54,809 nt of DNA from an uncultured Nocardioidaceae bacterium (lineage in GTDB: Bacteria; Actinomycetota; Actinomycetes; Propionibacteriales; Nocardioidaceae), in contig CADCUI010000004.1 in the NCBI GenBank assembly GCA_902805845.1, positions 1-54,809 of the forward strand, in the 5' to 3' direction. The stretch's first letter is position 1; the number at the start of each line of letters is the position of its first letter. The notes beneath the pieces are model-generated. The model worked only from the letters and a program-made list of their open reading frames with translations, did not search any database and was not told the DNA's origin. Position numbers and translations under genes: made by a program. Of this stretch, positions 21,915 through 37,003 are shown in pieces.

Positions 21915-21917
21915 CCC

Positions 21918-22003
21918 GCCGAGTCGGCGCTTGTGCACGCGCCGAACTCGCCGAGTCGGCGCTTGTGCACACGTCCAGACCTGCCGAGTCGGCGCTTGTG
22001 CAC
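21918..22003 (+). repeat. Three direct copies of the 21-bp stop-adjacent repeat
   Basis: GCCGAGTCGGCG plus CTTGTGCAC (21 bp) occurs identically at 21918, 21950 and 21983. The copies are spaced 32 and 33 nt apart, with unrelated 11- and 12-nt spacers. The array begins 3 nt after the kamA stop and ends 13 nt before the convergent exonuclease stop. Each copy contains two small dyads (GCCGAGTCGGC and GTGCAC). The same unit occurs three times at 36927-37000. Confidence 0.95.
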
Positions 22004-22016
22004 GCCGCTGCGGGGC

Positions 22017-22958
22017 TCAGGGGGTCGAGAGCGCCGTGAGCGTCTCCACGAGCCGGGCGGTGGGGCTGTCCAGCCCCCAGCGCTGTGACAGCGCCACCAG
22101 TGCGTCGGGGTCGACCGGGGTGCGAGGCAGGGTGAGGTCGGGCGAGCCGAGGTCGATGTCGCAGGCGACCCGCACGACCTCCGGAGCCACCGCGAGGTAG
22201 TCCTGCGCGTCGATGAGCTTGCGCCGCGGACCGGGCGCCAGCTCCGAGCCCGGGTCCTCGACGGCCGCGAGCAGCCCCGCCATGTCTCCGAACCGGGTGA
22301 GCAGGGCAGCCGCGGTCTTGTCCCCCACTCCGGCCACGCCGGGAAGTCCGTCGGAGGCGTCGCCGCGCAGGGTGGCGAAGTCGGCGTACTGACGCGCCGC
22401 AACGCCGTACCGCTGCCGCACCCAGGAATTCGTGACCTCCTCGTGGCGGCCGACCCCGCGGGCGACGTACAGCACCCTGACGCCGCGCTCGTCGTCCACC
22501 AGCTGGAAGAGGTCACGGTCGCCGGTGACGATGTCGACGGGCGTGGTCGCGCGGGTGGCGAGCGTGCCGATGACGTCGTCCGCCTCGTAGCCGTCGGCGC
22601 CGACCACGGCGATCCCGAAGGCGGCGAGCACCTGCTCGATGATCGGCACCTGCACCTCGAGGGCGTCGGGCACCTGCTCGACGTCGGGATCCTGCGCGCG
22701 CTCGGCCACGAGCCGGTGCGCCTTGTACGACGGGAGCAGCGCGACCCGCCACGCCGGCCGCCAGTCGTTGTCCCAGCAGCAGGCGAGGTGGGTCGGGCGG
22801 TGCTGCGACACCAAGCGGCTGATGAAGTCCAGCAGGCCGCGGACCGCGTTGACCGGCGTGCCGTCCGGGGACGTGATGGTGTCCGGGACGCCGTAGAACG
22901 CGCGGAAGTACAGGCTGGCGGTGTCCAGGAGCATGAGCTGGCCGGGGCGCTCGGGCAT
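22017..22958 (-). CDS. 5'-3' exonuclease (PolA N-terminal domain-like)
   Basis: The 313-residue protein matches the FEN-type nuclease domain of DNA polymerase I. It has LMLLDTASLYFRAFYG, the metal-binding GYEADDVIGTLA and DIVTGDRDLFQLV, and the helix-hairpin-helix DNA clamp GLPGVAGVGDKTAAAL. It removes flaps or RNA primers during repair and replication. The polymerase part is absent; stand-alone forms of this length are common in actinobacteria. The ATG at 22958 lies 7 nt after a TAGGCT box (leaderless). It converges on kamA over a repeat array. Confidence 0.88.
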   Translation of the reverse strand: MPERPGQLMLLDTASLYFRAFYGVPDTITSPDGTPVNAVRGLLDFISRLVSQHRPTHLACCWDNDWRPAWRVALLPSYKAHRLVAERAQDPDVEQVPDALEVQVPIIEQVLAAFGIAVVGADGYEADDVIGTLATRATTPVDIVTGDRDLFQLVDDERGVRVLYVARGVGRHEEVTNSWVRQRYGVAARQYADFATLRGDASDGLPGVAGVGDKTAAALLTRFGDMAGLLAAVEDPGSELAPGPRRKLIDAQDYLAVAPEVVRVACDIDLGSPDLTLPRTPVDPDALVALSQRWGLDSPTARLVETLTALSTP

Positions 22959-22965
22959 GTCGGGA

Positions 22966-22971
22966 AGCCTA
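22966..22971 (-). promoter_or_regulatory. -10 box TAGGCT for leaderless exonuclease
   Basis: TAGGCT on the minus strand is 7 nt before the ATG at 22958. It is back to back with the cyclase promoter at 23040. Confidence 0.5.
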
Positions 22972-23039
22972 GAGGGACGAGCCCCCGCGCGAGCCGCGGC
23001 GAGCCGGAAACCCGGCTGACACCACACCGTCGTCCGCCC

Positions 23040-23045
23040 TAGGCT
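23040..23045 (+). promoter_or_regulatory. -10 box TAGGCT for leaderless cyclase gene
   Basis: TAGGCT is followed by 7 nt and the ATG at 23053, supporting that start. Confidence 0.5.
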
Positions 23046-23052
23046 GCCGGAC

Positions 23053-24435
23053 ATGGTGGGTCCGGCAATGGCCGGGGGGTCCGGTCGAGCGGCGGCGCTG
23101 TGCGTCGCGCTGGCACTGCCGCTCGGTGGCCTCGCGCTGCTCCTGGCGCAGCCGACGTGGGACCTGCACTGGGAGCACCACCCGGCGCACTTCTGGCTGG
23201 TGCTGCTCACCGCCGCCGTCTCTGCGCTCCTCGCCTACGGGACCGGCGAGGCCGCCGTCCGCCGGGGGGATGCCCGGGTGCTGCACGTCTCGCTGGCCTT
23301 CCTGTCGTCCTCGGGATTCCTGCTGCTGCATGCGCTGGCGACGCCCGGGGTGCTGATCGCGGACCCCAATCCCGGATTCGTGGTCGCCACCCCGGTGGGC
23401 GTCGCGCTGGGCTCGCTGTTCGCGCTCCGGTCGACCGTCGAGGTGTCGGGGAACCGGGGCGTGCGGGAGGTGCGGACCGCGAAGCGCGCCAGGGTCGTCC
23501 TGGTGGCGGTCATGGTCGGCTGGGCAGTTCTGTCCCTCGCCGGGCTCCCACCGCTCGACGGTGCGCCCGGCGACGCCGAGGCCCTGCCGGCGGTGCTCGC
23601 GGCCCCGGCGGTGCTGCTCTACGCGGTGAGCGGCGCGCGCTACGTGATGCTCTGGCGTCGTCAGCGCGCCTTGATCCTGCTCATGGTGCTGTCGGCGTTC
23701 GTGCTCCTCTCCGAGGCGATGCTCACGATCGCGCTCGCCCGGAGCTGGCACCTCTCGTGGTGGCAGTGGCACCTGCTCCTGCTCGGCGCCTACGCCCTCG
23801 TCGCCTACGGGTCGCGGGTGTCCTGGCGCGACGAACGCTTCGGCGACCTCTACCTCCAGCAGAACCGGGCCGGGCACCGCGACATGAGCGTGCTGTTCGC
23901 CGACCTGCAGGGCTTCACGCCGTACTCCGAGCAGCACGCCCCGGAGGAGGTGGCGCGAATGCTGGACACCTACTTCGCGGTCGCGGTGCCGGCGGTCGTC
24001 ACGCCGTACGGCGGCGAGGTCCACCAGATCATCGGCGACGCGCTGATGGTGACCTTCAACCGGCGCGGTGACCAGCCCGACCACGCGCGGCGGGCAGCCG
24101 GCGCAGGGCTCGCGCTCCAGGCGGCCACCCTTCCGGTGGCCGAGCAACACCCGGACTGGCCGCGGTTCCGGGTCGGGATCAACACCGGCGGGGTGTCGCT
24201 CAGCGTGCTGGGCACCACCGGCGGCCGGACCCAGGCCATCGTCGGGGACGTGGTGAACACCGCTTCCCGCATCGAGGGGCGTGCGCCCGCGGGCGGGGTC
24301 GCGCTCGGGCCCGCCACGGTGGCGCTCCTCCAGGACGCCGAGACGACGCCGCTCGGGCCGCTGGAGCTCAAGGGCAAGGAGCAACCGGTCGAGGCGCACC
24401 TGCTGCTGTCCCTGGGACGCGCGCCGACGGGGTGA
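23053..24435 (+). CDS. Membrane-anchored class III nucleotidyl cyclase
   Basis: The 460-residue protein has about seven hydrophobic segments in residues 10-258 and a class III cyclase domain after residue 275. Both metal-binding aspartates are present (Asp284 in VLFADLQGF, Asp329 in IIGDALMVTF), as are the transition-state Asn402 and Arg406 in VVNTASRIEG. The purine-specifying positions differ from the usual Lys/Asp pair: GGEVHQIIGD has Gln where adenylate cyclases have Lys, and RTQAIVGD lacks the usual Asp. The product (cAMP, cGMP or neither) is therefore uncertain. The membrane part probably senses an envelope or lipid signal. It is a single gene with a leaderless start. Confidence 0.85.
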   Translation: MVGPAMAGGSGRAAALCVALALPLGGLALLLAQPTWDLHWEHHPAHFWLVLLTAAVSALLAYGTGEAAVRRGDARVLHVSLAFLSSSGFLLLHALATPGVLIADPNPGFVVATPVGVALGSLFALRSTVEVSGNRGVREVRTAKRARVVLVAVMVGWAVLSLAGLPPLDGAPGDAEALPAVLAAPAVLLYAVSGARYVMLWRRQRALILLMVLSAFVLLSEAMLTIALARSWHLSWWQWHLLLLGAYALVAYGSRVSWRDERFGDLYLQQNRAGHRDMSVLFADLQGFTPYSEQHAPEEVARMLDTYFAVAVPAVVTPYGGEVHQIIGDALMVTFNRRGDQPDHARRAAGAGLALQAATLPVAEQHPDWPRFRVGINTGGVSLSVLGTTGGRTQAIVGDVVNTASRIEGRAPAGGVALGPATVALLQDAETTPLGPLELKGKEQPVEAHLLLSLGRAPTG

Positions 24436-24477
24436 GGCAGGCATCGGTCGAGGACGGGGTTGACGGCGTCGCGCCGC

Positions 24478-24483
24478 TAGGGT
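24478..24483 (+). promoter_or_regulatory. -10 box TAGGGT deciding the AsnC-type start
   Basis: TAGGGT is 7 nt before the GTG at 24491. The upstream GTG at 24482 overlaps this box and so would not be on the transcript. Confidence 0.5.
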
Positions 24484-24490
24484 GACCCGC

Positions 24491-24949
24491 GTGGAGGACA
24501 TCGACCAGCGCATCCTGTCGCTGCTGGCCGCGGACGGCCGGATGTCGTTCACCGACCTCGGCAAGGCGACCGGCCTCTCGACGTCGGCAGTGCACCAGCG
24601 GGTCAAGCGGCTGGAGAGCCGCGGGGCGATCAGGTCCTACGCCGCTGTGCTCGACTACGAGGCGGTCGGTCTGCCGATCACCGCCTTCGTCTCCATCCGC
24701 CCCATCGACGCCTCGCAGCCCGACGACTCCCCGGACCGGATCGCCGACATCCCCGAGATCGAGTCCTGCTGGTCGGTGGCCGGGGACATGTCCTACATCC
24801 TCAAGGTGCGGGTCGAGACGCCACGCCATCTCGAGGACCTGCTCGGGAGGATCCGCGCAGCGGCGAACGTCTCCACCCGGACGACGGTGGTGCTGTCCAC
24901 GCCGTACGAGGGGCGACCGGTCGACCTGGACGTCGACCCGGGCCGCTGA
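24491..24949 (+). CDS. Lrp/AsnC family transcriptional regulator
   Basis: The 152-residue regulator has an N-terminal winged helix (VEDIDQRILSLLAADGRMSF, then GLSTSAVHQRVKRLE) and a C-terminal RAM ligand-binding domain (SCWSVAGDMSYILKVRVE). Lrp/AsnC proteins form octameric rings that respond to amino acids. With a lysine catabolic locus 2.6 kb away it is a natural candidate regulator of kdd/kamA, but that is inference. The start at GTG 24491 follows from the -10 box. Its stop is directly followed by the 22-bp repeat array. Confidence 0.88.
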   Translation: MEDIDQRILSLLAADGRMSFTDLGKATGLSTSAVHQRVKRLESRGAIRSYAAVLDYEAVGLPITAFVSIRPIDASQPDDSPDRIADIPEIESCWSVAGDMSYILKVRVETPRHLEDLLGRIRAAANVSTRTTVVLSTPYEGRPVDLDVDPGR

Positions 24950-24960
24950 CCCGGCACGAG

Positions 24961-25019
24961 GGGCGGCTCGGGCAGACACGACGGGCGGGTGGGCCAGACA
25001 TGAAGGGCGGCTCGGCGGG
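24961..25019 (+). repeat. 22-bp tandem repeat array behind the AsnC gene
   Basis: The units at 24961, 24983 and 25005 begin GGGCGG. The first two continue with a T/G-rich link and CAGACA-CGAC or CAGACA-TGAA; the third is cut off by the helicase stop at 25020. The array starts 11 nt after the AsnC stop. The 33-nt core at 24983-25015 recurs on the opposite strand at 27789 and 47779. Confidence 0.9.
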
Positions 25020-27785
25020 TCAGTCGGTGAGCGAGGAGTAGGCCACCACACCGCGACGCAGGGCGTCGGCCGTTGCCCGCGCCGTCTCACGGAGCGCCGG
25101 CCCTCCAGGGCCGGCACCGGCCGCGTCGGCGACCTGGCCTGCCAGGTCGAGCAGCTGCTTCATCCAGCGCACGAAGTCCCCGGCCGCGAGGTCGGTGACC
25201 GTCAGCACCTCGTCCAGCCCGGCACCCGAGGCCCACGCCTGAGCCGCCCACGCGAAGCCGAGGTCGGGCTCCCGGAGGAACTCGAGCCGGTGGTCCTTCT
25301 CCAGCCGGTCGAGCTCGCCCCACAGCGTCACCATGTCGCGCAGCACCTCGCGCACCGGCCCCTTGGGCAGCCGCGGGGGCGAGGCGTCATCGGCGCGCCG
25401 CGACTCGAAGACCAGGATCGACAGCGCCGCCGCCAGGTCGGAGGGGGACAGGCCGTCCCACAGCCCGGCCCGGAGGCACTCCGCGGCGACGAGGTCCATG
25501 TCGGTGTAGATCCGCATCAAGGTGCGACCGTTGGTCGTCACCCGGTCGTCCTCGAGGTAGCCCAGCGAGGTCAGCACGTCGCAGACGCGGTCGAACTGCC
25601 GGGCGATGGTGTTGGTCCGCGACTCGATGCGCCGCCGCAGTGTCCCGACCTCGCGCGAGAGCTTGTGGTAGCGCTCGGCCCACCGGGCGTGGGACTCGCG
25701 GTCAGAGCAGCCGTGGCACGGATGGGCGCGGATCTCGGCGCGGATGCGGGCGATCTCCCCTTCCTCGGGCGCTCCGGCGGGTCCGCCCCGGTCGCCGCGT
25801 CCACCCCTCCCCCGGCGCGAGGGCGGCGGCTCGAGGCTGCTGACCCGGGTGCCCAGCACGATGGAGAGCTCACGACGTGCCTGCGGGTTGCGTCCGTTGA
25901 AGTTGCGCGGCACCTTCATCCGTGTCAGCGGCGTCGCCGGGCGGTTGAAGTCGACCAGCGACAGCCGGCGTGCATGCCGGTCCTCGGTGAGCACGTAGGG
26001 GCGGGGCTCGTGCCGGTCCGACCTGGTGCCCGGGTCGATGACGACCGCCCAGCCGGCGTACTTCCCGGTGGGGACCGCGATGACATCGCCGGGCCGCAGG
26101 TCCTCCAGCGACCGCACGATCGCGTCGCGGTGGTCCGCCTTGCGGGCGCGCGCGGCGGCCGCCTCGGCGTCGCTGAGCCGCCGGCGGAGCCCGGAGTACT
26201 CCATGAAGTCCCCCAGGTGGCAGGTCGCCGCCTCGGCGTACCCCTCCATCCCCTCCTCGGCCTTGCGCAGCTGGCGGGCCAGGCCCACGACCGCGGCGTC
26301 GGCCTGGAACTGCGCGAAGGACGACTCGAGCAGCTCGCGCGCGGTCGTGCGGCCGACCTGGTGGACGAGGTTGACCGCCATGTTGTACGACGGTCGGAAG
26401 CTCGACCGGAGCGGGTAGGTCCGGGTCGAGGCGAGCCCGGCGACCGCCTTGGGGTCCACCTCGGGGCTCCACAGCACGACGCCGTGGCCCTCCACGTCAA
26501 TGCCGCGGCGACCCGCCCGCCCGGTGAGCTGGGTGTACTCCCCCGGCGTGATGTCGGCGTGGGTCTCGCCGTTCCACTTCACGAGCTTCTCGATGACCAC
26601 CGACCGGGCCGGCATGTTGATGCCCAGGGCCAGGGTCTCGGTGGCGAAGACCACCCGGCAGCGGCCGGCGGCGAACAGCTCCTCGACGCACTCCTTGAAG
26701 GTGGGCAGCATCCCGGCGTGGTGGGCCGCGATGCCGCGGGTGAGCCCGTCGACGAAGTCGTGGTAGCCGAGCACGTGGAGGTCCTCGTCGGGGATGTGCC
26801 GGCACTTCTCGTCGACGAACTCGCGGATCGCCTCCCGCTCACGCGGTGTCGTGAGCCGCAGGTCGGCCGCCAGGCACTGCTGGACCGCGGCGTCGCAGCC
26901 GACCCGGCTGAAGATGAAGTAGATCGCCGGCAGCAGCGCCTCCCGGTCGAGCCGGTCGACGACGTCGAAGCGGCTCGGCACCCCCGTACGGCGCGGCCGT
27001 TGCCCGCCGCGCTGGGGTCGCCGGTCGCGGAACCGATCGGCACGACGGTCGTTCTCCGCGATCCGCATCAGCTCGTTGTTGACCTTCGACTCCGGCCCGG
27101 CGAAGCCGGTCTCGTCGGCGAACAGGTCGTAGATCCGACGTCCGACCATCACGTGCTGGTAGAGCGGCACCGGACGGCGCTCCTCCACGATGGTCGTCGT
27201 CGACCCGCGGACGGTGGACAGCCACTCGCCGAACTCCTCGGCGTTCGAGACCGTGGCGCTCAGGGACACGACTGCGACGGACTCAGGCAGGTGGATGATG
27301 ACCTCCTCCCAGACCGCCCCGCGCATCCGGTCGGCGAGGTAGTGCACCTCGTCCATGACCACGAACCCCAGGCCGAGCAGGGTCGGTGAGCCGGCGTAGA
27401 GCATGTTGCGCAGAACCTCGGTCGTCATCACGACGATCGGTGCCTCGCCGTTGACGGTGTTGTCGCCGGTGAGCAGCCCCACCGAGTCGGGGCCGTAGCG
27501 ACGGACCAGGTCGGAGTACTTCTGGTTCGACAGTGCCTTGATCGGCGTGGTGTAGAAGCACTTGCGGCCCTGGTCCAGTGCCAGGTGCACCGCGAACTCG
27601 CCGACGATGGTCTTCCCCGACCCGGTCGGTGCCGCCACCAGGACGCCGTCTCCCGACTCCAGGGCCTCGCAGGCCTGCACCTGGAAGTCGTCGAGGGGGA
27701 AGTCGTAGAGCGCCCGGAAGTCGGCGAGCACCGGCGCCTTCTGCTCGGCGCGGAACTTCGCGTAGCGCTCGGACGGTGTGCTCAT
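25020..27785 (-). CDS. Ski2-like DEVH-box RNA helicase (HelY type)
   Basis: The 921-residue superfamily-2 helicase has Walker A APTGSGKTIVGEFA, DEVH in VVMDEVHYLADR, SATVSN, and the motif-VI TGRAGRRGIDVEG. A long C-terminal part (about residues 500-920) resembles the Mtr4/Ski2 winged-helix and helical-bundle region. Actinobacterial HelY-type proteins are thought to work in RNA turnover; partners are unknown. It is the conserved 3' neighbour of the tat/paf block in many actinobacteria. Its ATG overlaps the lipid kinase stop (ATGA). It converges on the AsnC gene with only repeats between them. Confidence 0.9.
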   Translation of the reverse strand: MSTPSERYAKFRAEQKAPVLADFRALYDFPLDDFQVQACEALESGDGVLVAAPTGSGKTIVGEFAVHLALDQGRKCFYTTPIKALSNQKYSDLVRRYGPDSVGLLTGDNTVNGEAPIVVMTTEVLRNMLYAGSPTLLGLGFVVMDEVHYLADRMRGAVWEEVIIHLPESVAVVSLSATVSNAEEFGEWLSTVRGSTTTIVEERRPVPLYQHVMVGRRIYDLFADETGFAGPESKVNNELMRIAENDRRADRFRDRRPQRGGQRPRRTGVPSRFDVVDRLDREALLPAIYFIFSRVGCDAAVQQCLAADLRLTTPREREAIREFVDEKCRHIPDEDLHVLGYHDFVDGLTRGIAAHHAGMLPTFKECVEELFAAGRCRVVFATETLALGINMPARSVVIEKLVKWNGETHADITPGEYTQLTGRAGRRGIDVEGHGVVLWSPEVDPKAVAGLASTRTYPLRSSFRPSYNMAVNLVHQVGRTTARELLESSFAQFQADAAVVGLARQLRKAEEGMEGYAEAATCHLGDFMEYSGLRRRLSDAEAAAARARKADHRDAIVRSLEDLRPGDVIAVPTGKYAGWAVVIDPGTRSDRHEPRPYVLTEDRHARRLSLVDFNRPATPLTRMKVPRNFNGRNPQARRELSIVLGTRVSSLEPPPSRRGRGGRGDRGGPAGAPEEGEIARIRAEIRAHPCHGCSDRESHARWAERYHKLSREVGTLRRRIESRTNTIARQFDRVCDVLTSLGYLEDDRVTTNGRTLMRIYTDMDLVAAECLRAGLWDGLSPSDLAAALSILVFESRRADDASPPRLPKGPVREVLRDMVTLWGELDRLEKDHRLEFLREPDLGFAWAAQAWASGAGLDEVLTVTDLAAGDFVRWMKQLLDLAGQVADAAGAGPGGPALRETARATADALRRGVVAYSSLTD

Positions 27786-28711
27786 GTGCCGACCCGCCCT
27801 TCATGTCTGGTCGAGCCGCCCAGCATGGTGGGCGGCTCTGCGACGAGCACCCGCAGAGCCCGCGGTACCGCCGTCACCGTGATCGGCAGCGGGCCCAGCC
27901 TCTCGCCGTCGGCGTACGCCACGACTCCCGGGGCCGCGATCCTCACCTCCCGCACCCGGTGGTGCTCGTACGACCGGTGCCGGGTGTGGGTGCCCGAGAG
28001 CAGCCTCGGATAGGTACGCACCAGGTCGGCCCTGCCCATCGGGTGGATGAGGACCACGTCGAGGAGCCCGTCGTCGAGGAGCGCGCCCTCGGTGATCCTC
28101 AAGCCGCCGCCGTAGGAGGGGCCGTTGCCCACCGCCACCATCATCGCGCTCAGTTGCGTCGGGCGACCGTCGAGCTCGAGCTCGTAGGGCAGGGGCGTGA
28201 AGGTCCGCAGCTCGGCGAGCGTGGCCAGGTGGTAGCGCAGCTGCCCCCGAGGTCGCCGCATGCGGTTCGCGCGCTCGTTGACCAGCGCGTCGAAGCCGGC
28301 GGAGAGCACGCACAGGAAGTACGTCGGCCCGGCCTGCGCGAGGTCGACCGTGGCGACCCGGCCGGCCACCACCACGTCGGCCGCGGCGGCCGGGTCGTTG
28401 CGCGGGATGCCGAAGTAGCGGGCGGCGTCGTTGCCGGTGCCGCTCGGGATGATGCCCAGGGGCGTGGGCCCGTGGGCGAGGACCTGGGCCGCCAGGTGCG
28501 TCATGCCGTCACCGCCGGCGACGACCAGGCTCTCGACCCCCTCGGCGACCGCCTGCCGGGCAAGGTCGCGGGCCTCCTCCACGTCACGGCCCTCGAGCCG
28601 GCGTACGGCGATGCCGGCCTCCTCCAGGCGGAGGGCGGCGGTCGCCGCGACGCTCCTGGCCCTGCCCCTGCCGGCTCTGGGGTTCGTCAGCAGCGCGATC
28701 TCCCTGGCCAC
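27782..28711 (-). CDS. Diacylglycerol kinase-family lipid kinase
   Basis: The 309-residue protein has the DAGK catalytic signatures VVAGGDGMTHLAAQVL and IIPSGTGNDAARYFGI, and an N-terminal NPRAGRGRARS phosphate loop. It phosphorylates diacylglycerol or a related lipid with ATP, recycling lipid anchors released at the membrane. It starts with a leaderless GTG. Its last dozen residues (LGGSTRHEGRVGT) are encoded by a copy of the 22-bp repeat family, so a repeat appears to have replaced or extended the natural C-terminus. It overlaps the helicase start. Confidence 0.87.
   Translation of the reverse strand: MAREIALLTNPRAGRGRARSVAATAALRLEEAGIAVRRLEGRDVEEARDLARQAVAEGVESLVVAGGDGMTHLAAQVLAHGPTPLGIIPSGTGNDAARYFGIPRNDPAAAADVVVAGRVATVDLAQAGPTYFLCVLSAGFDALVNERANRMRRPRGQLRYHLATLAELRTFTPLPYELELDGRPTQLSAMMVAVGNGPSYGGGLRITEGALLDDGLLDVVLIHPMGRADLVRTYPRLLSGTHTRHRSYEHHRVREVRIAAPGVVAYADGERLGPLPITVTAVPRALRVLVAEPPTMLGGSTRHEGRVGT
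27789..27821 (-). repeat. Copy of the 22-bp repeat family inside lipid kinase 3' end
   Basis: On the minus strand this reads GGGCGGCTCGA, CCAGACATGAA, GGGCGGGTCGG, matching 24983-25015 closely. It is translated in the kinase frame. Together with 27830-27838 (GGGCGGCTC), its start also forms a 9-bp hairpin. Confidence 0.9.
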
Positions 28712-28718
28712 ATCGGCC

Positions 28719-28724
28719 AGCCTA
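28719..28724 (-). promoter_or_regulatory. -10 box TAGGCT for leaderless lipid kinase
   Basis: TAGGCT on the minus strand is 7 nt before the GTG at 28711. It separates the kinase from the upstream tat genes transcriptionally. Confidence 0.5.
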
Positions 28725-28756
28725 GCCGCGGGGGCGGCGTCCCCCGTCGCCGGCGA

Positions 28757-29197
28757 TCACAGCCGCAGCGCGACGGTGAAGCGGTCGGAAGGGGCTCCCA
28801 CCGCCTTGGCCAGCCGGCGTACCGCCTCGAGGGCAGGTTCCGCAGTCACCTCGGTGCCGGGCATGACCACGGTGAGCCGGCCGTTCAGCTTCACCAGGAG
28901 CGCTTCTCCGCGCCACCACGCCTGGTGGACCAGCGAGCGCCACCGCTCGGCCATGACCGGCTCGGGATAGGCCAGGTCGGCGGCGAGCAGGTCGCACCCG
29001 CAGCTGCGCGGCGGGCGGCCGTCCTCCGGTCCCGGACCCTCCACGAGTCCGCCGAGCGCGTCGTCGAGCCGCCCCGCGACGTGGTGCCCGCCGAGGCTGC
29101 TGACCGCGGTCCAGGTCACCTCCGACTCGCCGAGCCAGTCCGGCAGGTCGAACGGGTCGACGGGGACGATCTCCTCGGCGTCGCCCGGTCGCGGCAT
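28757..29197 (-). CDS. Conserved-looking hypothetical protein
   Basis: I do not recognise this 146-residue protein. It begins MPRPGDAEEIVPVDPFDLPD and contains a central SLVHQAWWRGEALLVKLNGR, then LTVVMPGTEVTAEP and a helix VRRLAKAVGAP. It has no signal peptide and no transmembrane segment. Codon bias is strong, and its ATG overlaps the tatC stop (TGATG), so it is very likely real and cotranscribed with tatAC. The mix of tryptophans and strands could suit a small binding domain, but no function is claimed. Confidence 0.7.
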   Translation of the reverse strand: MPRPGDAEEIVPVDPFDLPDWLGESEVTWTAVSSLGGHHVAGRLDDALGGLVEGPGPEDGRPPRSCGCDLLAADLAYPEPVMAERWRSLVHQAWWRGEALLVKLNGRLTVVMPGTEVTAEPALEAVRRLAKAVGAPSDRFTVALRL

Positions 29198-30087
29198 CAG
29201 TCGTCGTCCTCCGACAGTCGCGAGGGGGTGAACTCCTCGCGGTAGGAGTCCTCGATCTCGGATGCCTCGTCGTCGTCGGCCTCCTCGGCCGTTGCCCGTC
29301 TCCGCCGGCGGTCGACGAGCCGGGCGATGACCTCCGAGACCATGAACAGCAGGGTCATCGGTGCCGCGAGCATGATCATCGAGAACGGGTCGGTGGAGGG
29401 CGTGGCCGCGGCTGCGAACACGAAGACGCCGATGATGATCCAGGCGCGGTGCTCCCCCAGCGCCCGGCCGGAGACGACCCCGGCGAGGTTGAGCAGGATG
29501 ACGAACAGCGGGATCTCGAAAGCCACCCCGAAGACCAGCAGCATCCGGGTGAAGAACGAGAAGTACTCGCCGAACTCGACGAGGTTCTCCAGCTGGCTGG
29601 GGGTGAAGCCGATCAGCACCTCCAGCCCCCGGGGCAGCACGTAGTAGCCGACGGCCACCCCTGCGATGAACAGCGGACCCGCGACAGCCATGAAGACCCG
29701 TGACCAGCGGCGCTCGTGGGAGTGCAGGCCTGGCACGATGAAGGCCCAGATCTGGTACAGCCAGTACGGGCTGGTGCAGACGAGCGCGGCCACCCCGCTC
29801 AGCTTCAGCTGGAGGAGCAGCGGGCCGCCCGCGCCCTTGATGTAGGCCTTGGTCTCCACCTCCTCGCCCAGTGCCGTCTTCGCCGCGTTGTACGGCGAGA
29901 GCACGGCGTTGAGGAGGTACTCGTAGAAGAACAGCGCGACGATGACGGCGATGAAGAGCACCAGCACCGAGCGCAGCAACCGGGCGCGCAGCTCCCGCAG
30001 GTGGTCGACGAGGGCCATCCGGCCGTCGGGGCCTATCGGGTTGACGGGGTCGGTCCGGAAGATCCGGACCACGCTGGCAAGCCTCAC
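29197..30087 (-). CDS. tatC: Sec-independent protein translocase TatC
   Basis: The 296-residue TatC has six transmembrane helices and the family landmarks MALVDHLRELRARLLRS, SPYWLYQIWAFIVPGLHSHE and FGVAFEIPLFVILLNLAG. It recognises the twin-arginine signal of folded proteins and, with TatA, moves them across the membrane. It has a charged C-terminal tail (EEADDDEASEIEDSYREEF). A GTG start at 30087 gives a 23-residue lead before MALVDH; a later GTG at 30072 is possible. It follows tatA by 48 nt. Confidence 0.93.
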   Translation of the reverse strand: MRLASVVRIFRTDPVNPIGPDGRMALVDHLRELRARLLRSVLVLFIAVIVALFFYEYLLNAVLSPYNAAKTALGEEVETKAYIKGAGGPLLLQLKLSGVAALVCTSPYWLYQIWAFIVPGLHSHERRWSRVFMAVAGPLFIAGVAVGYYVLPRGLEVLIGFTPSQLENLVEFGEYFSFFTRMLLVFGVAFEIPLFVILLNLAGVVSGRALGEHRAWIIIGVFVFAAAATPSTDPFSMIMLAAPMTLLFMVSEVIARLVDRRRRRATAEEADDDEASEIEDSYREEFTPSRLSEDDD

Positions 30088-30135
30088 GGAGCGTCGGTCA
30101 CCACGGGTGCGTCGGGGATGCGGCGGACCGCCCGG

Positions 30136-30408
30136 TCAGCGCTCGGTGTCGTGGTGCGGCTGCGGCTGCGCGACGCCCTGGTCGTACTGGACGTCGGTGC
30201 GCGCGGTGGACGCGTTCTGGGCGTCGATCTGACGCTGCTCGGGCGTCTTGTGCTCGTCGTCGTCGTCGATGAGGCCCTTGGTCTCCGCCTTGAAGATCCG
30301 CAGCGCGCGGCCGCTGCCGCGGGCGAGCTCAGGCAGCTTCTTGGCGCCGAAGAGCAGCACGAGGACGAGCAGGATGAGGATGATCTCGGTGGGTCCGAGG
30401 TTGCCCAT
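30136..30408 (-). CDS. tatA: Twin-arginine translocase subunit TatA
   Basis: The 90-residue protein has a single membrane helix ([20 protein letters not shown]) followed by an amphipathic helix ([16 protein letters not shown]) and an acidic disordered tail, the TatA plan. It oligomerises to form the translocation pathway with TatC. No separate tatB is seen. It lies downstream of pafC with its own likely promoter. Confidence 0.93.
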
Positions 30409-30438
30409 GGGGGTCCGCCTTCGTCGTTCGCTCGGGGG

Positions 30439-30467
30439 GCCGCGTCACGCGGCTTCACTCCATCGTA
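30439..30467 (-). promoter_or_regulatory. tatA promoter box and leader hairpin
   Basis: TACGAT on the minus strand (30462-30467) is a plausible -10. It is followed in the leader by a perfect 6-bp hairpin GCCGCG-TCA-CGCGGC (30439-30453). The hairpin could also end readthrough from pafC. Confidence 0.4.
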
Positions 30468-30486
30468 CGCACACGTCAGGGAGCAG

Positions 30487-31461
30487 TCAGAGATACCGGG
30501 CAAGAGCCTGCTCGGCGGTGGCGCTGATCTCTTCGGCCAGCGACGCGGGCGACACCAGCGTCGCCGACCCGCCCAGCCGGAGCATGAGGCGCACGAGCCA
30601 GGACGGGTCTCCCACCCGCAGCTCGACGGTCAGGCCGCCGTCGGCCTCCTCCACCGCCGACTCCACCGGGAAGTACTCGCTCACCCACCGGGCAGAGCTC
30701 GTCAGCCTGAGAGTGGCCAGCAGCGCGTCCGGCGCAGGCCGGAAGATGCCCTGGGCCAGGTCGAGCGGCGGGAGCTCGGCGTGCTCGGTCACGGCGGTGT
30801 CGAGGATCTCGGCGTCGGCGATGCGGTCCAGCCGGAACAGCCGTCGGTCCTCGACGAGCTGGCACCACGCGTCGAGGTAGGTGTGGCCGCCGGAGCCGGT
30901 CACCGCGATCGGGTCGACCACCCGGCTCGTGACCTCGTCGCGGACGGCCGAGCGGTGACTCAGCCGCACCTGTCGCCGCTGGGCGACCGCGGTGCCGAGC
31001 CGCTCCCGCAGCGCGTGCTCCGCGGCGTCCTCGGGCAGGAGCTCCACCTGGTTGGCGATCCCGGCGGCCTCTCCGGCGGCCTCCTCGACCTTGCGCAGCG
31101 TCCGCTCCACGACCTCCCGCTCGGGTGCCCCGCTGCCCTCGAGCAGCGCGCGCAGCCCCACCACCAGGGCGGCGGCCTCGGTGGTGTCGAGCCGCAGCGG
31201 GCGGGTCAGGTAGTCGGCGTTCGACAGCCGGATGACGTCCTCGCCCTCGAACGCCTCGAAGTCGATGTCGATGAGGTCACCCATGCCGAGGCCGGGCAGG
31301 CCACAGAAGAGCAGCACGTTGATGTCACGCCGGATCGTCCGCGGGCTCACCCCGAAGTCGCGCGCCGCCTCGTCGACCCGGACCGCTCCCCTGCCCTGGA
31401 GGTAGGGAACCAGCGCCAGGAGCCGGTTGACCTGGTCGCGGGCGCTGCTCGGCGCGCTCAT
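30487..31461 (-). CDS. pafC: WYL-domain regulator PafC
   Basis: The 324-residue protein has an N-terminal HTH (GAVRVDEAARDFGVSPRTIR), a WYL domain (VVDPIAVTGSGGHTYLDAWC, then EDRRLFRLDRI) and a C-terminal WCX-like extension. PafB and PafC form a heterodimeric, SOS-independent activator of DNA-damage genes in mycobacteria; the WYL domain is thought to sense single-stranded nucleic acid. Its ATG overlaps the pafB stop (ATGA), as expected for a 1:1 complex. Confidence 0.92.
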   Translation of the reverse strand: MSAPSSARDQVNRLLALVPYLQGRGAVRVDEAARDFGVSPRTIRRDINVLLFCGLPGLGMGDLIDIDFEAFEGEDVIRLSNADYLTRPLRLDTTEAAALVVGLRALLEGSGAPEREVVERTLRKVEEAAGEAAGIANQVELLPEDAAEHALRERLGTAVAQRRQVRLSHRSAVRDEVTSRVVDPIAVTGSGGHTYLDAWCQLVEDRRLFRLDRIADAEILDTAVTEHAELPPLDLAQGIFRPAPDALLATLRLTSSARWVSEYFPVESAVEEADGGLTVELRVGDPSWLVRLMLRLGGSATLVSPASLAEEISATAEQALARYL

Positions 31462-32435
31462 GCCGCGCCCGCTGCGCCGCTCAGCGTGCCCCGCAGCCGG
31501 GCAACCACCCCGTCACGGAGGTCGGCCGGGCTCTCCACCACCACGTCGGGGCCGTAGGACACCAGCTCGTCGACGAGCGTCTCGGTGCGGGCGAACCCGA
31601 CCTCCAGCCGGTCCCAGCCCGGTTCCACGCCGTGGGTCTGCTGTGCGGCGCGGTGGCGCAGGGCGACGGCCCGCGCCTCGCGGACCCGTACGACGGCGGT
31701 GCGCTCGGGGGTCTCTGGGGCCAGCAGACCGGTCAGGGCGCGGATGTCGGTGCCCTCAGGGACCGTGAAGGAGCCTGGTGGACCGGTGAGCTCGACGTCG
31801 CCCACCACCCGGGAGAGCCGGAACAGCCGCTGCTCGCCACGGTCGAGGTCGTGCCCCACGGCGTACCACCGTGACCGGTAGGAGACGACCCCCCACGGCT
31901 CGAGGCGGCGTACCGCCGGCGTCGCCGCCCTCGTCGAGCGGTAGGAGAAGGAGACCGGTCGGCGTGCGGAGACGGCCTGCCAGAACGCCTCGAACGCCGG
32001 CTCGTCGTTCGCCAGCTGCGGCTGGGCGACGTCCAGTGCGGACCGGTCGACCTCGACGCCGGCGGCCCGCAGCTTGCGCAGCGCATCCGTCGTGGCCGAG
32101 GCCAGCCCGGCCTGCTGCCACACCCGGGCGGCGAGCCCGATGACCGCCGCCTCGTCGGCCTCGAGGTCGATCTCGGGAAGCTCGAAGGCCGATCGGACGA
32201 TCCGGTAGCCCTGCTCGTCCTCGAAGAGCGGGTCGAAGCCGCCGACCTCGATGGGTACGCCGAGGGCCCGGAGGTCGTCCTTGTCCCGCTCGAACATCTT
32301 CTCGAAGGACTCCTCGGTGGCGGCGTCCCGGTAGTCGGGGATGACCTGTCGCAGGCGGTCCTTCGGCACGTAGCCCCGCGCGACCAGCAAGGTGATGAGC
32401 AGGTTGACCAGTCGCTCGCTCTTGCGAGCCGACAT
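31458..32435 (-). CDS. pafB: WYL-domain regulator PafB
   Basis: The 325-residue partner of PafC has an N-terminal winged HTH (ERLVNLLITLLVARGYVPKD), a WYL domain (RRLEPWGVVSYRSRWYAVGH, then RGEQRLFRLSRV) and a WCX-like end. Its ATG shares one base with the FKBP stop (TGATG). Several upstream start-like codons lie in the FKBP gene and were not used. It acts in the mycobacterial-type DNA damage response and is commonly cotranscribed with pafA. Confidence 0.92.
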   Translation of the reverse strand: MSARKSERLVNLLITLLVARGYVPKDRLRQVIPDYRDAATEESFEKMFERDKDDLRALGVPIEVGGFDPLFEDEQGYRIVRSAFELPEIDLEADEAAVIGLAARVWQQAGLASATTDALRKLRAAGVEVDRSALDVAQPQLANDEPAFEAFWQAVSARRPVSFSYRSTRAATPAVRRLEPWGVVSYRSRWYAVGHDLDRGEQRLFRLSRVVGDVELTGPPGSFTVPEGTDIRALTGLLAPETPERTAVVRVREARAVALRHRAAQQTHGVEPGWDRLEVGFARTETLVDELVSYGPDVVVESPADLRDGVVARLRGTLSGAAGAA

Positions 32436-33400
32436 CAGCCCTCGGACCCCAGGACGTCGATGACGAAGACGAGGGTGGACCCGCCGGGGATGTCCGGCGG
32501 CTGCCCCTGGTCGCCGTACCCCTGCGCGGGCGGGATCACCAGCATGACCCGGCTGCCGACCTTGACCCCGGCGAGCCCCTCCACCCAACCGTCGATGAGC
32601 GCGCCCTTGGCGAGCTGGAAGGTGGCCGGCTGCTTGGAGTAGGACTCGTCGAAGGGCTTGTCGCCCTCGCCCCACACGGCTCCGAAGTAGTTGACGCTGA
32701 CGGAGGCGCCCTCCTTCACCGCGGGACCGGTGCCGTTGATCAGCGGGATGACCTGCAGCTTGGTCGGGGGGTCGGCAGGCGCGTCGGCGAAGTCGATGGC
32801 CGTGACGTCACCGTCCTTCTCGACCGCCTTGGGGGCGTCTGCCGGCGGGTCGACCTTCGTGCCCTCGGGCCCTGTCAACGGCGGCGCTGCGGTCTCGAGC
32901 AGGTCGATGACCATCACCAGTGCGTCGTCGGGGCCCAGCCCCATCTGGGGGGCCCCCTGCTCACCGGTCAGCTCGCTGGTGGGCATGGCCAGCGCCACCC
33001 GGCTGCCGATCGTCTCGCCGGTGACCGCGTCCGCGATCGCGGGGGGCTGCTGGGCGACCACCATCTTCTGGGGCTGGTTCTCCTTGTAGTTGTCCTGGAT
33101 CTTGTCCCCGGTCTTGCCGTTGACGAGTGAGTAGCGGAAGAGCGCGGCGTCCTCGGCGCCCACCTCGGACCCGTCGCCGTCGATGACGACCGAAGACTCC
33201 GGCTCACTGACGGCCAGCTTGTCCACCTTGACGGTGGGAACCGTGCCGAAGTCGCCGGAGACGGTCAGCCCGTCGATGGCGCCCGACCCGGCGGTCGTGT
33301 CGGAGTCGGAGTCGGAGCTCGAGTCGGAACCACCACCGCAGGCGGTGGTTCCGGCGAGCAGGGCGGCCACGACGGAGAGTCCGGCGAGACGACGGCGCAT
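32435..33400 (-). CDS. Lipoprotein with two FKBP-type prolyl isomerase domains
   Basis: The 321-residue lipoprotein has a lipobox LAGTTAC (Cys21) followed by a Ser/Asp linker. The C-terminal FKBP domain (about 225-320) carries GASVSVNYFGAVW, FDESYSKQPATFQL and PPAQGYGDQGQP. A first, degenerate FKBP-like unit (about 75-180) lacks the tyrosine- and phenylalanine-rich active-site residues. It should be anchored outside the membrane and catalyse prolyl isomerisation or act as a chaperone. An FKBP between pafA and pafB recurs in related actinobacteria. Its ribosome-binding site is GAAGG. Confidence 0.88.
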   Translation of the reverse strand: MRRRLAGLSVVAALLAGTTACGGGSDSSSDSDSDTTAGSGAIDGLTVSGDFGTVPTVKVDKLAVSEPESSVVIDGDGSEVGAEDAALFRYSLVNGKTGDKIQDNYKENQPQKMVVAQQPPAIADAVTGETIGSRVALAMPTSELTGEQGAPQMGLGPDDALVMVIDLLETAAPPLTGPEGTKVDPPADAPKAVEKDGDVTAIDFADAPADPPTKLQVIPLINGTGPAVKEGASVSVNYFGAVWGEGDKPFDESYSKQPATFQLAKGALIDGWVEGLAGVKVGSRVMLVIPPAQGYGDQGQPPDIPGGSTLVFVIDVLGSEG

Positions 33401-33437
33401 GCAACAACCTTCAGATGTCAGGGGGACGGAACAGGCA

Positions 33438-33443
33438 ACAGTA
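33438..33443 (-). promoter_or_regulatory. -10 box TACTGT for FKBP-pafBC
   Basis: TACTGT on the minus strand lies 38 nt before the FKBP ATG, giving a leader of about 30 nt. It would start a transcript separate from pafA. Confidence 0.4.
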
Positions 33444-33497
33444 ACCGACCGACCCAGGACCGCCGTGCGCCGACCGCCACGGCCGGCGACCGCGTCG

Positions 33498-34859
33498 TCA
33501 CATCCCGTCGATGAGCTTCTGGACGCGCTCGTCGGAGGCCCGGAAGGGGTCCTTGCACAGCACCGTGCGCTGCGCCTGGTCGTTGAGCTTCAGGTGCACC
33601 CAGTCGACGGTGAAGTCACGGCGGCGCTCCTGGGCACGCTTGATGAACTCACCACGCAGCCGGGCCCGCGTCGTCTGCGGCGGCACGGACTTGGCCTCGA
33701 AGATCTGCAGGTCGCTGGTGACACGGGTCACCGCACCGCGTCGCTCCAGGAGGTAGTAGAGCCCCCGGCCGCGGTGGATGTCGTGGTAGGCGAGGTCGAG
33801 CTGGGCGATGCGGGCGTGGCTGAGCGGCAACCCGTGCTGGCTGCGGTAGCGGTCGATCAGCTTCCACTTGATGACCCAGTCGATCTCCCGCTCGACCATG
33901 CCGAGGTCGCCGGAGTCGACCGCCTTCAGCCCGCGCTCCCACAGGTCGAGCGCCCGGTCGATCACCGGGGTGCGGAGCTCGCGGCGGTCGACGAAGTCCC
34001 GGGCCCGGGTGAGGTACTCGGTCTGGATCTCCAGGGCGCTGGCCTCGCGACCGTTGGCCAGCCGCACGCGACGGCGACCCGACATGTCGTGGGAGATCTC
34101 GCGGATCGCCCGGATCGGGTTCTCCATCGTGAGGTCGCGCATCACCACGCCCTCCTCGATCATCCGGAGCACCAGGTCGCAGCTGGCCACCTTGAGCATC
34201 GTGGTGGTCTCGGACATGTTCGAGTCACCGACGATCACGTGGAGCCGGCGGTAGCGCTCGGCGTCGGCGTGCGGCTCGTCGCGGGTGTTGATGATCGGCC
34301 GGCTCCGGGTCGTGGCGCTCGAGACGCCCTCCCAGATGTGCTCGGCACGCTGGGAGACCGAGTAGATCGCCCCCCGTGGCGTCTGGATCACCTTGCCGGC
34401 GCCGCAGATGATCTGGCGGGTGACCAGGAACGGGATGAGCACGTCGGCGAGCTTGGCGAACTCGCCGTGGCGGCCGACGAGGTAGTTCTCGTGGCAGCCG
34501 TAGGAGTTGCCCGCCGAGTCGGTGTTGTTCTTGAACAGGTAGACGTCTCCGTCGATCCCCTCGTCGCGCAACCGGCGCTCCGCGTCGACGAGCAGCCCCT
34601 CGAGCACCCGCTCCCCCGCCTTGTCGTGGGCGACGAGGTCGGCGATGTCGTCGCACTCCGGGGTGGCGTACTCCGGGTGGCTGCCCACGTCGAGGTAGAG
34701 CCGGGCGCCGTTGCGGAGGAAGACGTTGCTGCTGCGGCCCCACGAGACGACCTTGCGGAACAGGTAGCGCGCCACCTCGTCCGGTGAGAGCCGCCGCTGA
34801 CCCTTGAACGTGCAGGTCACGCCGTACTCGTTCTCGATCCCGAAGATCCGGCGGTCCAC
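33498..34859 (-). CDS. pafA: Pup-protein ligase PafA
   Basis: The 453-residue glutamine-synthetase-like ligase has the N-terminal [16 protein letters not shown], the catalytic Asp in [18 protein letters not shown] (Asp57), and [20 protein letters not shown]. It uses ATP to join the C-terminal glutamate of Pup to substrate lysines. It has the same fold as Dop but lacks Dop's inserted loop near residue 40. The start is a leaderless GTG at 34859. The usual prcBA-pafA order is kept. Confidence 0.97.
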
Positions 34860-34865
34860 ATGACC

Positions 34866-34871
34866 ACCCTA
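34866..34871 (-). promoter_or_regulatory. -10 box TAGGGT for leaderless pafA
   Basis: TAGGGT on the minus strand is followed by 6 nt and the GTG at 34859. pafA can therefore be transcribed apart from prcA, which ends 87 nt upstream. Confidence 0.5.
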
Positions 34872-34946
34872 GGCGCAGCCGGCAACCCGTGGCTGGAGAC
34901 TCGCGAACTGACGGTTCCGGCGTACGACGCGGCCGGGACCAGCCGG

Positions 34947-35786
34947 TCAGCCGGTGCTGCCGGGGTCCACCGGCGGAGCGACGGGCGTGTCGTCCGGAGG
35001 GGCAACGGGTGCGTCGGACGCTGGGTCGGCCGCCGGGTCGGTCGCTGGGTCGGTCGCTGCTGGGGTCTCCTCCCCGACGTCCTCGCCCCGGTCCTCTCCC
35101 AGGATTCCGGCCAGCTCGGGGTCGGTGAACCGCTTGAACTTGCGCTGCTGGGTGCGGGTGCGGTCGAGCACGGCGACCTCGAGGGCCTCCACCGCGATGA
35201 CCCGTGAGCCGGACTCGTGCCGCCCGAGGGCGTCGACGGCGAGCTGGATCGCCTCGCTCAGCGACATGCCGGTGCGGTAGTGCTCCCGGAGGTGGGTGGT
35301 CACGGTCTCGGCCGAACCCCCCATCGCGGCGAAGGAGCGTTCGTCGGCCACCTGGCCGTCGTAGGTGAGCCGGTAGACCTGGTCGGCGGCCGGGGAGTCC
35401 CCCACCTCGCCGACGAAGAGCTCGACCTCGTAGGGCTTCTCCCCACCAGAGGAGAAGATCGCGCCCAGGGTCTGCGCGTAGGCGTTGGCCAGGGCACGTC
35501 CGGTGACGTCGCGCCGGTCGTAGGAGTAGCCGCGCATGTCGGCGAGCCGGACACCTGCGATCCGCAGGTTCTCGAACTCGTTGTAGCGCCCCACGGCGGC
35601 GAACGCGATGCGGTCGTAGATCTCACTGACCTTGTGCAGCGCCGCCGAGGCGTTCTCGGAGACGAAGAGCAGGCCGTCCGCGTAGCGCAGCACAGCCACG
35701 CTGCGGCCCCGGGCGATGCCCTTGCGGGCGAAGTCCGCCCGGTCCTTCATCAGCTGCTCGGGCGAGACGTAGAACGGCATGTTCAT
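34947..35786 (-). CDS. prcA: 20S proteasome alpha subunit
   Basis: The 279-residue alpha subunit starts [20 protein letters not shown], the gate-forming N-terminus, and contains [20 protein letters not shown] and the ring contacts. Alpha rings cap the PrcB chamber and dock Arc. The C-terminal 50 residues are a long Asp/Ala/Pro repeat-like tail ([20 protein letters not shown]), which looks disordered and is longer than in mycobacterial homologues. It follows prcB after 10 nt. Confidence 0.95.
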
Positions 35787-35796
35787 GGCTTCATCC

Positions 35797-36630
35797 TCAC
35801 GTCAGCGCGGCGGCGGGGCCGTCGGGGCGCTCCATGCGGGCGGCGATGACGCGGTCCGCGATCGCGGCGACGTCCTCGTCGCTGACCCTCCGGTAGCCGC
35901 GGTCGGTGATGACGCCGACGATCGGGAAGATGCGCCGGGTCAGGTCAGGTCCGCCGGTCGCCGAGTCGTCGTCGGCGGCGTCGTACAGCGCCTGGATGAG
36001 CGCGGTGACGCAGCCCTCGGCGTCGAGGTCCTCGCGGTAGAGCTTCTTCAGCGCGCCGCGCGCGAACAGCGAGCCGGAGCCGACGGAGTGGAAGGCGGTC
36101 TCCTCGTAGCGGCCGCCGGTGACGTCGTAGGAGAAGATCCGGCCGTGCCCGGTGGCCAGGTCGAAGCCGGCGAACAGCGGCACGACCGCGAGCCCCTGCA
36201 TCGCCATGCCGAGGTTCGACCGGATCAGGGTGGCGAGTCGGTTGGCCTTGCCGTCCATGGAGAGCGGGCTGCCCTCGATCTTCTCGTAGTGCTCCAGCTC
36301 GAGCTGGAACAGCCGCACGATCTCCACCGCGAGGCCGGCGGACCCGGCGATGCCCACGCAGGAGAACTCGTCGGCCGGGTAGACCTTCTCGATGTCCCGC
36401 TGGGCGATGACGTTGCCCATGGTGGCCCGCCGGTCGCCGGCCATCACCACGCCACCGGGGAAGGTGGCCGCCACGATCGTCGTCCCGTGCGGGGCCAGGT
36501 CGGCGGCACTGCCGGCCGGGGTCGCGCGGCGGGACGGCAACAGCTCGGGCGCCTGGGCGGCGAGGAAGTCGAGGAAGGAGGAGGAGCCGGGCGTGAGGTA
36601 GGCCGGAGGGAGGCGCTGCTCGAAGGTCAC
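35797..36630 (-). CDS. prcB: 20S proteasome beta subunit
   Basis: The 277-residue precursor has a 49-residue propeptide ending APHG and the catalytic Thr50 in [20 protein letters not shown], exposed by self-cleavage. [10 protein letters not shown] and the [13 protein letters not shown] end are also family-typical. It forms the proteolytic inner rings. Its start overlaps the pup stop (4 nt), so the two are coupled. A GC-rich linker lies inside the propeptide. Confidence 0.96.
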
Positions 36631-36818
36631 TGTCCGCCCTTCTGGATGAACGACTTCACGAAGTCCTCGGCGTTGGACTCGAGGACCTCGTCGATCTCGT
36701 CGAGGATCGCGTCGATGTCCTCGTCGAGCTGGTCCTTGCGCTCGGCGGACTCGGCCTCGGTCGTCTCCGCGGTCCGGTCCTCGCTGGACCGGCGCGGTTG
36801 CTTCTGCTCCTGCGCCAT
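36627..36818 (-). CDS. pup: Prokaryotic ubiquitin-like protein Pup
   Basis: The 63-residue protein has the disordered basic/acidic N-terminus ([15 protein letters not shown]), a helical Arc-binding region ([17 protein letters not shown]) and the C-terminal FIQKGGQ. The final Gln must be deamidated by Dop before PafA can attach Pup to lysines. The ribosome-binding site GGGAGG is 6 nt from the ATG at 36818. The frame is open further upstream across a repeat region but is not coding there. Confidence 0.97.
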
Positions 36819-36855
36819 GGTGTGCCTCCCAATCGGCTGCCGCTCGGCTGTGCCA

Positions 36856-36861
36856 AACCTA
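36856..36861 (-). promoter_or_regulatory. -10 box TAGGTT for pup-prcBA
   Basis: TAGGTT on the minus strand lies 38 nt before the pup ATG, downstream of a repeat hairpin that separates it from dop. A TTGTAG-like -35 is about 15 nt upstream of it. Confidence 0.4.
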
Positions 36862-36923
36862 GCGCGTCGGGCCGCGCTACAAGGCGTATCCGGCTCGGCG
36901 GTCGCGCCCGGCCGGTCACCTCC

Positions 36924-37003
36924 GACGCCGAGTCGGCGCTTGTGCACGTGCACAAGCGCCGACTCGGCAGTGTCGGGGCGTGCACAAGCGCCGACTCGGC
37001 GTC
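36924..37003. repeat. 21-bp repeat cluster with a 42-bp perfect palindrome between dop and pup
   Basis: The unit GCCGAGTCGGCG plus CTTGTGCAC is at 36927 on the plus strand, and its reverse complement is at 36948 and 36980. The first two abut exactly, so 36927-36968 is a perfect 42-bp palindrome. The outer copies carry matching GAC and GTC flanks (24-bp inverted pair, 36924 and 37003). On the dop strand the cluster starts inside the stop triplet (37002-37004). The 32-nt copy spacing matches the kamA cluster. Confidence 0.95.

Follow-up and report, generated by a model that had tools for sequence, protein, structure and literature searches.

What is a 21-bp unit, GCCGAGTCGGCGCTTGTGCAC, doing directly behind the stop codons of two genes of an uncultured Nocardioidaceae bacterium? 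The question is raised by a stretch of 54,809 nucleotides (positions 1 to 54,809 of contig CADCUI010000004.1, assembly GCA_902805845.1; hereafter the window), in which the unit, called the A unit, occurs six times without mismatch in two clusters. The A unit is part of a high-copy, exactly pitched and oriented repeat that is biased towards gene ends, patchy among relatives and phased in its inverted pairs. It is probably a tandemly growing, dialect-forming repeat resembling the repetitive extragenic palindromic (REP) elements, and its arrays at gene ends are putative DNA-binding sites. The whole of the favoured explanation, a REP-like repeat combined with predicted phased protein-binding sites that mark gene ends, is put forward tentatively, at slightly less than an even chance.

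The first cluster begins 3 nt past the stop codon of a KamA-like radical S-adenosylmethionine gene (20490..21914, + strand; 149.8 bits against TIGR00238, under the cut-off of 199.2). It holds three exact units on the + strand, at 21918..21938, 21950..21970 (pitch 32) and 21983..22003 (pitch 33), the last of them 13 nt ahead of the stop codon at which a convergent gene (22017-22958; 5'-3' exonuclease-like) ends. The second cluster occupies the gap between dop (depupylase/deamidase; 37002..38495, - strand; TIGR03688 751.5 bits, cut-off 492.3) and pup (36627-36818, - strand; TIGR03687 and PF05639). The first unit behind dop (36980..37000, -) lies 1 nt from the stop codon at 37002-37004. The second (36948..36968, -) abuts an inverted mate (36927..36947, +), with which it forms a 42-bp perfect palindrome; all three are exact matches. 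In 100 dinucleotide-preserving shuffles of the window, no match to the unit was found at three or fewer mismatches. An earlier note, made from the sequence alone, had listed these six copies, their spacing of 32 or 33 nt and the abutting pair at 36927/36948, all of which exact matching bears out. The clusters were said to begin within 3 nt of a stop codon or inside it; the nearness holds (3 nt and 1 nt), but neither lies inside. The + unit at 36927, for its part, follows no gene and belongs to the dop array as its inverted mate.

The repeat extends far beyond the window. The source assembly (G000) is 96 percent complete and consists of 3.28 Mb in 91 contigs. At three or fewer mismatches, 169 copies of the A unit were counted in it, against one for a reversed-pattern control. 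Stretches of DNA fetched from it (L-numbers, as for the other genomes; contigs carry C-numbers) cover 159 of the 169 copies, and because they were picked around copies, their frequencies of intergenic types are biased. Counted by the core GCCGAGTCGGCGNNNNNGCAC at two or fewer mismatches, they contain 177 A units in 84 same-strand runs, leaving out six isolated two-mismatch matches within genes. Exactly 32 bp separates 83 of the 93 same-strand neighbours. The copies elsewhere in the genome on which the earlier note made its reading depend thus exist and show the bias in spacing and towards gene ends. Its three copies per locus are found at the two loci of the window, but in the fetched stretches runs range from 1 to 5 units and loci reach 8. 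The spacers, which it took to be unrelated, have a weak genome-wide consensus, GCSSRAACCCC, so the true repeat is 32 bp long. Mean spacer identity is 0.77 within runs (33 pairs) and 0.55 between runs (3370 pairs), and the five variable tail bases are identical in 70 of the 93 neighbours; both observations fit array growth via tandem duplication. Several arrays lie near contig ends (C74, C79, C81 and C88 of G000; C41 and C54 of the congener G004), where draft assemblies may break, so that copy numbers may be underestimates.

Genes were called with a home-made codon-score caller, which can miss small ones. Relative to these calls, 47 of the 84 runs start within 30 nt past a same-strand stop codon, 41 of them within 12 nt; an opposite-strand stop lies within 30 nt of the 3' end of the run in 12 of 84 cases. 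For clusters with both neighbour genes called, 38 of the 47 array ends facing a same-strand gene are within 12 nt, as compared to 22.8 expected from random placement in their own intergenic regions. Only 1 of 32 array ends facing a gene start is that close. The mutual orientation of the units is also restricted. Adjacent A units within 200 bp in G000 are ++ in 52 cases, -- in 42, +- in 28 and -+ in none, meaning that inverted arrays converge. For stretches from six relatives, the corresponding counts are +- 31 and -+ 2 after removal of mirror matches, and one of the two -+ pairs is a long-distance match holding a one-mismatch core.

The distances between converging units point to the face of the helix. 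Start-to-start, the G000 pairs fall at 21 (3 pairs), 29-31 (13) and 40-42 bp (8), with single pairs at 52, 84, 94 and 140 bp, and the loops within one distance class look unrelated in sequence. One of the 28 inverted pairs (140 bp) was omitted from all phasing tests. The 27 pairs up to 94 bp, uncorrected, give R=0.891 at 10.5 bp, which none of 20,000 uniform draws equalled, and the best period in a scan of 7-16 bp is 10.6. For the corrected and distinct sets, 84 and 94 were replaced by 52 and 62 because of a degenerate unit inside the loop; the uncorrected result is as strong as the corrected ones. With each distance counted once (n=9, two corrected), 2 of 20,000 draws were as high, and when every class was represented by a single value (n=5), 46 of 20,000 were. 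Further genomes, drawn from a set of 341 of the same family, behave similarly. The 14 converging pairs of G142 give 1 draw in 20,000 and a best period of 9.9 (49 in 20,000 for seven distinct values), although seven of these pairs (52-53 bp) are not independent, since their loop sequence is partly common. For 16 pooled pairs of G325, G309, G203 and G152, none of 20,000 draws was as high. Left out of this test were one G325 pair (118 bp) and five G152 pairs at 22 bp; the latter are mirror matches of a near-palindrome, and removal of eight such matches leaves G152 with +- 5 and -+ 0. Several loops of the G142 pairs (L302-L306, L354-L360) hold a nested inverted repeat of the TTCTCCACAG...CTGTGGAGAA kind, which we take to be DnaA-box-like. 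The same genome also has 32-bp palindromes of the GCCGAGTCGGCGCACATGTGCGCCGACTCGGC kind and, by the coordinates listed, units about 212 bp apart.

Phasing persists where the arms do not match. In 11 G000 pairs with unlike tails, the arms differ in 3-5 of 21 positions, and R is 0.915. Arms with unlike tails would pair more poorly as RNA, yet the phasing is equally strong; a period of about 10.5 bp under these conditions suggests a protein reading duplex DNA rather than an RNA hairpin. The head-to-tail pitch is mostly 32 in G000, G142 (also 31), G152, G176, G309 and G325, 21 in G203 and 22 in a repeat family of G004 named C. The same core has a pitch of 22 in Nocardioides sp. (zg-DK7169) and of 32 in N. 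szechwanensis. In B-DNA, pitches of 32, 21 and 22 bp come close to a whole number of turns. Since duplication fixes the pitch, it carries little weight by itself, and the loop classes are the stronger argument. As far as sequence can tell, the periodicity and the pitches together support the earlier proposal of a dispersed, helically phased element that may bind protein.

Among relatives, the distribution is uneven. The four congeners compared (G001-G004) have 1, 4, 5 and 1 matches at three or fewer mismatches (controls 4, 0, 0 and 3), all scattered and all with 2 or 3 mismatches. In the 341 family genomes, 53 match at two or fewer mismatches, with top counts of 156 (G000), 65, 40, 39, 34, 34 and 13; these are lower bounds because the searches are dialect-specific. 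The core GCCGAGTCGGCGC is constant across family genomes, and the tail varies: it reads TTGTGTCC in G142, ATCTGCAC or ATCTGCAG in G152, G176 and G325, and TTGTTGAC or TTGTTCAC in G203. With 18-base patterns, 161 copies were counted in G325 (two or fewer mismatches; control 7) and 67 in G176 (exact; control 0). A class-wide draw of 394 genomes gave only five single exact matches outside the family, and a contig scan for the unit in other assemblies returned at least 106 stretches. Among the matches listed from that scan, the named genomes with more than one match belong to Nocardioides, so that the family searched is probably Nocardioidaceae. The idea of a lineage-specific element therefore holds against the four congeners, with their 1 to 5 scattered matches each, but not against several other family genomes, in which variants are abundant.

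Other repeats occupy gene ends in the same group. Family C of G004, GTCGAG(A/T)(C/G)GGCGCTCGCGCGAG, has 65 copies at three or fewer mismatches versus 0, 1, 0 and 1 in G000-G003. In 22 stretches of G004, 42 of the 46 neighbouring C units stand 22 bp apart, a stop codon lies no more than 30 nt ahead of 23 of the 36 runs, and the inverted pairs number +- 4 and -+ 0. By eye, C resembles the A core and may be a diverged relative. A sample of 64, 79 and 82 intergenic regions from G001-G003 contained no 12-mer that recurred in at least four regions of a genome. Family B (about CAGACATGARGGGCGGSTCGGC) lies in the window at 24950-25019, 27788-27841 and 47778-47821; at 24950, a single nucleotide separates it from the stop codon of an Lrp/AsnC-like gene. 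Its pitch is 22 in 42 of 42 neighbours, and B copies elsewhere are in some cases perfect palindromes with a central CATG. At the end of the KamA-like gene, G004 has C in place of the A array of G000, and two syntenic convergent ends carry C in G004 and B in G000. A convergent end (L238) has an ordinary hairpin, by inspection, in G004 and an A array in G000. A tandem gene pair (L239) is separated by 4 nt in G004 and by five A units in G000. Behind a gene in L391, C stands in G004 and no array is shown in G000. One further syntenic place fell on two G004 contig ends and was left out. The turnover pattern is suggestive only, as the syntenic sites are few and the sample is biased. Other stop-adjacent repeats or palindromes were seen in G003, at the dop end (L284 2128-2200, ggtggtcgagcagcgagcg type) and at an orthologous gene end (L285 2020-2319, ACTAGGTACCTAGT type).

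The favoured explanation would join these observations as follows. The unit would be seeded mainly just behind stop codons, and arrays would then grow by tandem duplication in whole 32-bp steps. Each unit is a predicted duplex-DNA site for a protein that would be sequence-specific, would probably bind cooperatively and would require sites on the same helix face. Same-face binding is suggested by the periodicity of about 10.5 bp across unrelated loops and by pitches near whole turns. Bound converging arrays would most likely mark or insulate gene ends, and might conceivably act, for instance, as roadblocks to RNA polymerase read-through. Core and tail may have drifted in step across each genome to give the dialects, presumably along with the protein.

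Several observations weigh against this explanation. The tandem pitch can be explained by duplication alone, and inheritance, not selection, might account for the loop classes. A good part of the runs (37 of 84) lie more than 30 nt from a same-strand stop, many of them inverted mates, and several arrays break the gene-end rule by lying in apparently divergent or 5' regions. One genuine -+ pair occurs in G325. A pure gene-end signal does not fit with the units found inside the coding sequence of an E2 gene, described below, nor with the A units of G000 that stand between two genes only 4 nt apart in G004. None of G001-G004 shows an array at the dop end. In families B and C, which have few inverted pairs, phasing near 10.5 bp is not evident by eye (for B, no clear phasing was seen), and all 11 inverted pairs of B are -+ when the units are read in the direction in which they follow stops. 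With no clear phasing and a reversed pair order in B, phasing is not a feature common to all gene-end repeats here. Finally, direct-only arrays fold somewhat better as RNA than array-free tandem ends (median z -1.11 versus -0.28; 40 of 103 such ends folded).

Much of the same evidence can be read as the trace of a selfish or neutral repeat of the REP or miniature inverted-repeat transposable element (MITE) kind, a serious contender that we nevertheless judge somewhat improbable. An enzyme would copy the unit, slippage or unequal exchange would lengthen the arrays, and purifying selection would leave them behind genes, where they do least harm; phasing would reflect the copying complex. Gain within the lineage is in keeping with this, the four congeners having just scattered matches, as are the likeness of spacers within runs and the five-unit array of G000 where G004 has 4 nt between two tandem genes. 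Moreover, a 2-oxoacid dehydrogenase E2 gene of G000 carries an in-frame array in a linker (L234 4135-4221, with units at 4135, 4168 and 4201), encoding AESAPTHAAPP repeats and keeping the reading frame thanks to a pitch of 33; an opposite-strand array lies in its second linker (L234 3594-3676). Compared with it, the G002, G003 and G004 orthologues lack 34 to 44 residues. In all three aligned congeners the first linker is shorter, and the second varies in length and sequence (the G001 orthologue, in two pieces, was left out). Units inside this linker indicate that the repeat enters new sites and spreads. Position is no obstacle to a selfish origin: REPs generally are reported to adjoin gene 3' ends (PMC3733652), so position alone is not new. 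Harder to explain in this way are the preferred orientation to the gene, the strict convergence (0 of 28 inverted pairs divergent in G000) and phasing across unrelated loops. Furthermore, no enzyme of the expected type was met. PF01797 (Y1_Tnp, the REP-associated tyrosine transposase or RAYT) had no match in G000 or in eight other array-bearing genomes (nine assemblies, 77 to 100 percent complete) versus 5 of 14 controls. A plasmid or phage origin was rejected, as the first cluster (86 bp; blastn, E 1e-3) had no match in 72,556 plasmid or 50,697 phage records. A 15-mer was found in 52 stretches of viral sequence, once in each of them except for one stretch with two matches, which was read as background.

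It is improbable that the units act mainly as RNA, forming hairpins once transcribed and thereby terminating transcription or protecting mRNA 3' ends. Their position and orientation behind stops would suit such a role, as would the syntenic convergent site at which G004 has an ordinary hairpin and G000 an array. Segments of 90 nt behind stops were folded, and those with an inverted mate are very stable: z is below -2 in all 19 of them, and its median is -6.97. In contrast, the folding of 27 direct-only segments is much the same as that of 37 array-free convergent ends (median z -1.11 versus -1.14); these segments have no U-tract, with TTTT in one of the 27. An intrinsic terminator, a GC hairpin followed by a T-run, was considered and set aside on the folding and on a terminator scan, which gave four terminator-like sites, none within a cluster. 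Rfam at the gathering score had no match at 20000-39000 of the window. The phasing that persists between unlike arms also speaks against RNA. A general RNA-end or terminator function, which had been offered as one possible role, is therefore not upheld. Chance or an annotation artefact can be dismissed, as shuffled sequence and the reversed pattern give next to no matches and the unit recurs in other family assemblies.

A more specific form of the protein-binding explanation, which we regard as unlikely but worth stating, is a gene-end boundary system. A polar, cooperative protein bound to phased convergent arrays behind stops would block read-through. Protein and site would change together, giving lineage-specific dialects and pitches (32, 21 and 22 bp), and some gene ends would keep an array while its sequence is replaced. 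Two general questions are, to our knowledge, unanswered: how transcription ends without U-tract terminators in high-GC actinobacteria, and why small repeats gather at gene ends. The A repeat, whose pitch is exact, whose orientation is biased and whose phasing of about 10.5 bp can be measured, is present in some species and nearly absent in their congeners, and is relevant to both. Even as a mere parasite, it would still represent a REP-like family that lacks RAYT and is able to grow in helical-turn steps and to enter a coding linker in frame.

No paper on the A unit was found in the literature searched, and neither was a description of its combination of exact tandem pitch and orientation, phasing, dialects and absence of RAYT. 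In mode only, it is like the Sal-box/TTF-I polar roadblock terminators of rRNA genes, in which protein-binding sites follow a transcribed region in tandem and with a set orientation, but these are eukaryotic and confined to one locus type. The Neisserial DNA uptake sequence shares the lineage dialects of a short motif and the inverted pairs at gene ends; the A unit differs in a roughly ten-fold lower copy number, exact tandem arrays and few copies in genes. A CRISPR (clustered regularly interspaced short palindromic repeats) array, which would have repeats of 24-48 bp, unique spacers and cas genes at one locus or a few, was ruled out by the 21-bp core, the 11-bp related spacers and the several dozen small loci, cas genes not having been searched. 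REP doublets forming hairpins (REPINs) have a RAYT partner. They resemble the A unit as short repeats forming a within-genome population with preferred separations (PMC3116915). They are, however, doublets at fixed separations with peaks at 71 and 110 bp, whereas a single-strand run of A units can lengthen by itself and an A locus can have arms with unlike tails. The TAACTGA repeats of Beggiatoaceae (PMC4679880) are likewise intergenic direct repeats with a scattered phylogenetic distribution, and they too occur in small sets, of which one genome has 169; their unit, however, has 7 bp and lies upstream of start codons, compared to 32 bp behind stop codons here.

The closest likeness is to REPs and bacterial interspersed mosaic elements (BIMEs), described as dispersed palindromes of 20-40 bp in many copies, intergenic, at 3' ends, with inverted dimers and some species-specific (PMC3733652). 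Unlike them, the A unit lacks a GTAG tag and a RAYT, is biased in orientation to the gene and has phased inverted pairs. It is mostly head-to-tail at exactly 32 bp, whereas CGTC repeats are mainly head-to-head dimers with negligible head-to-tail arrangement, and the phyla named there for GTAG and CGTC repeats do not include Actinomycetota (PMC3733652). A GTAG REP with RAYT was ruled out, there being no Y1 transposase in the nine genomes and, in the unit listing and flank profiles, no conserved unpaired GTAG at the palindrome end. A CGTC REP, with its CGTC tag, 8-9 bp stem, 4-5 nt loop and CCA tail, does not match either: by inspection, the A unit begins CGCCGAGTCGGCG, with a 5-bp stem and a 3-nt loop, while the CGTCGAG with which family C of G004 begins is not accompanied by an 8-9 bp stem. 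Nevertheless, the A unit is short, palindromic, intergenic, present in many copies and near gene 3' ends. The A family is thus of the REP kind in the broad sense, outside the GTAG and CGTC families.

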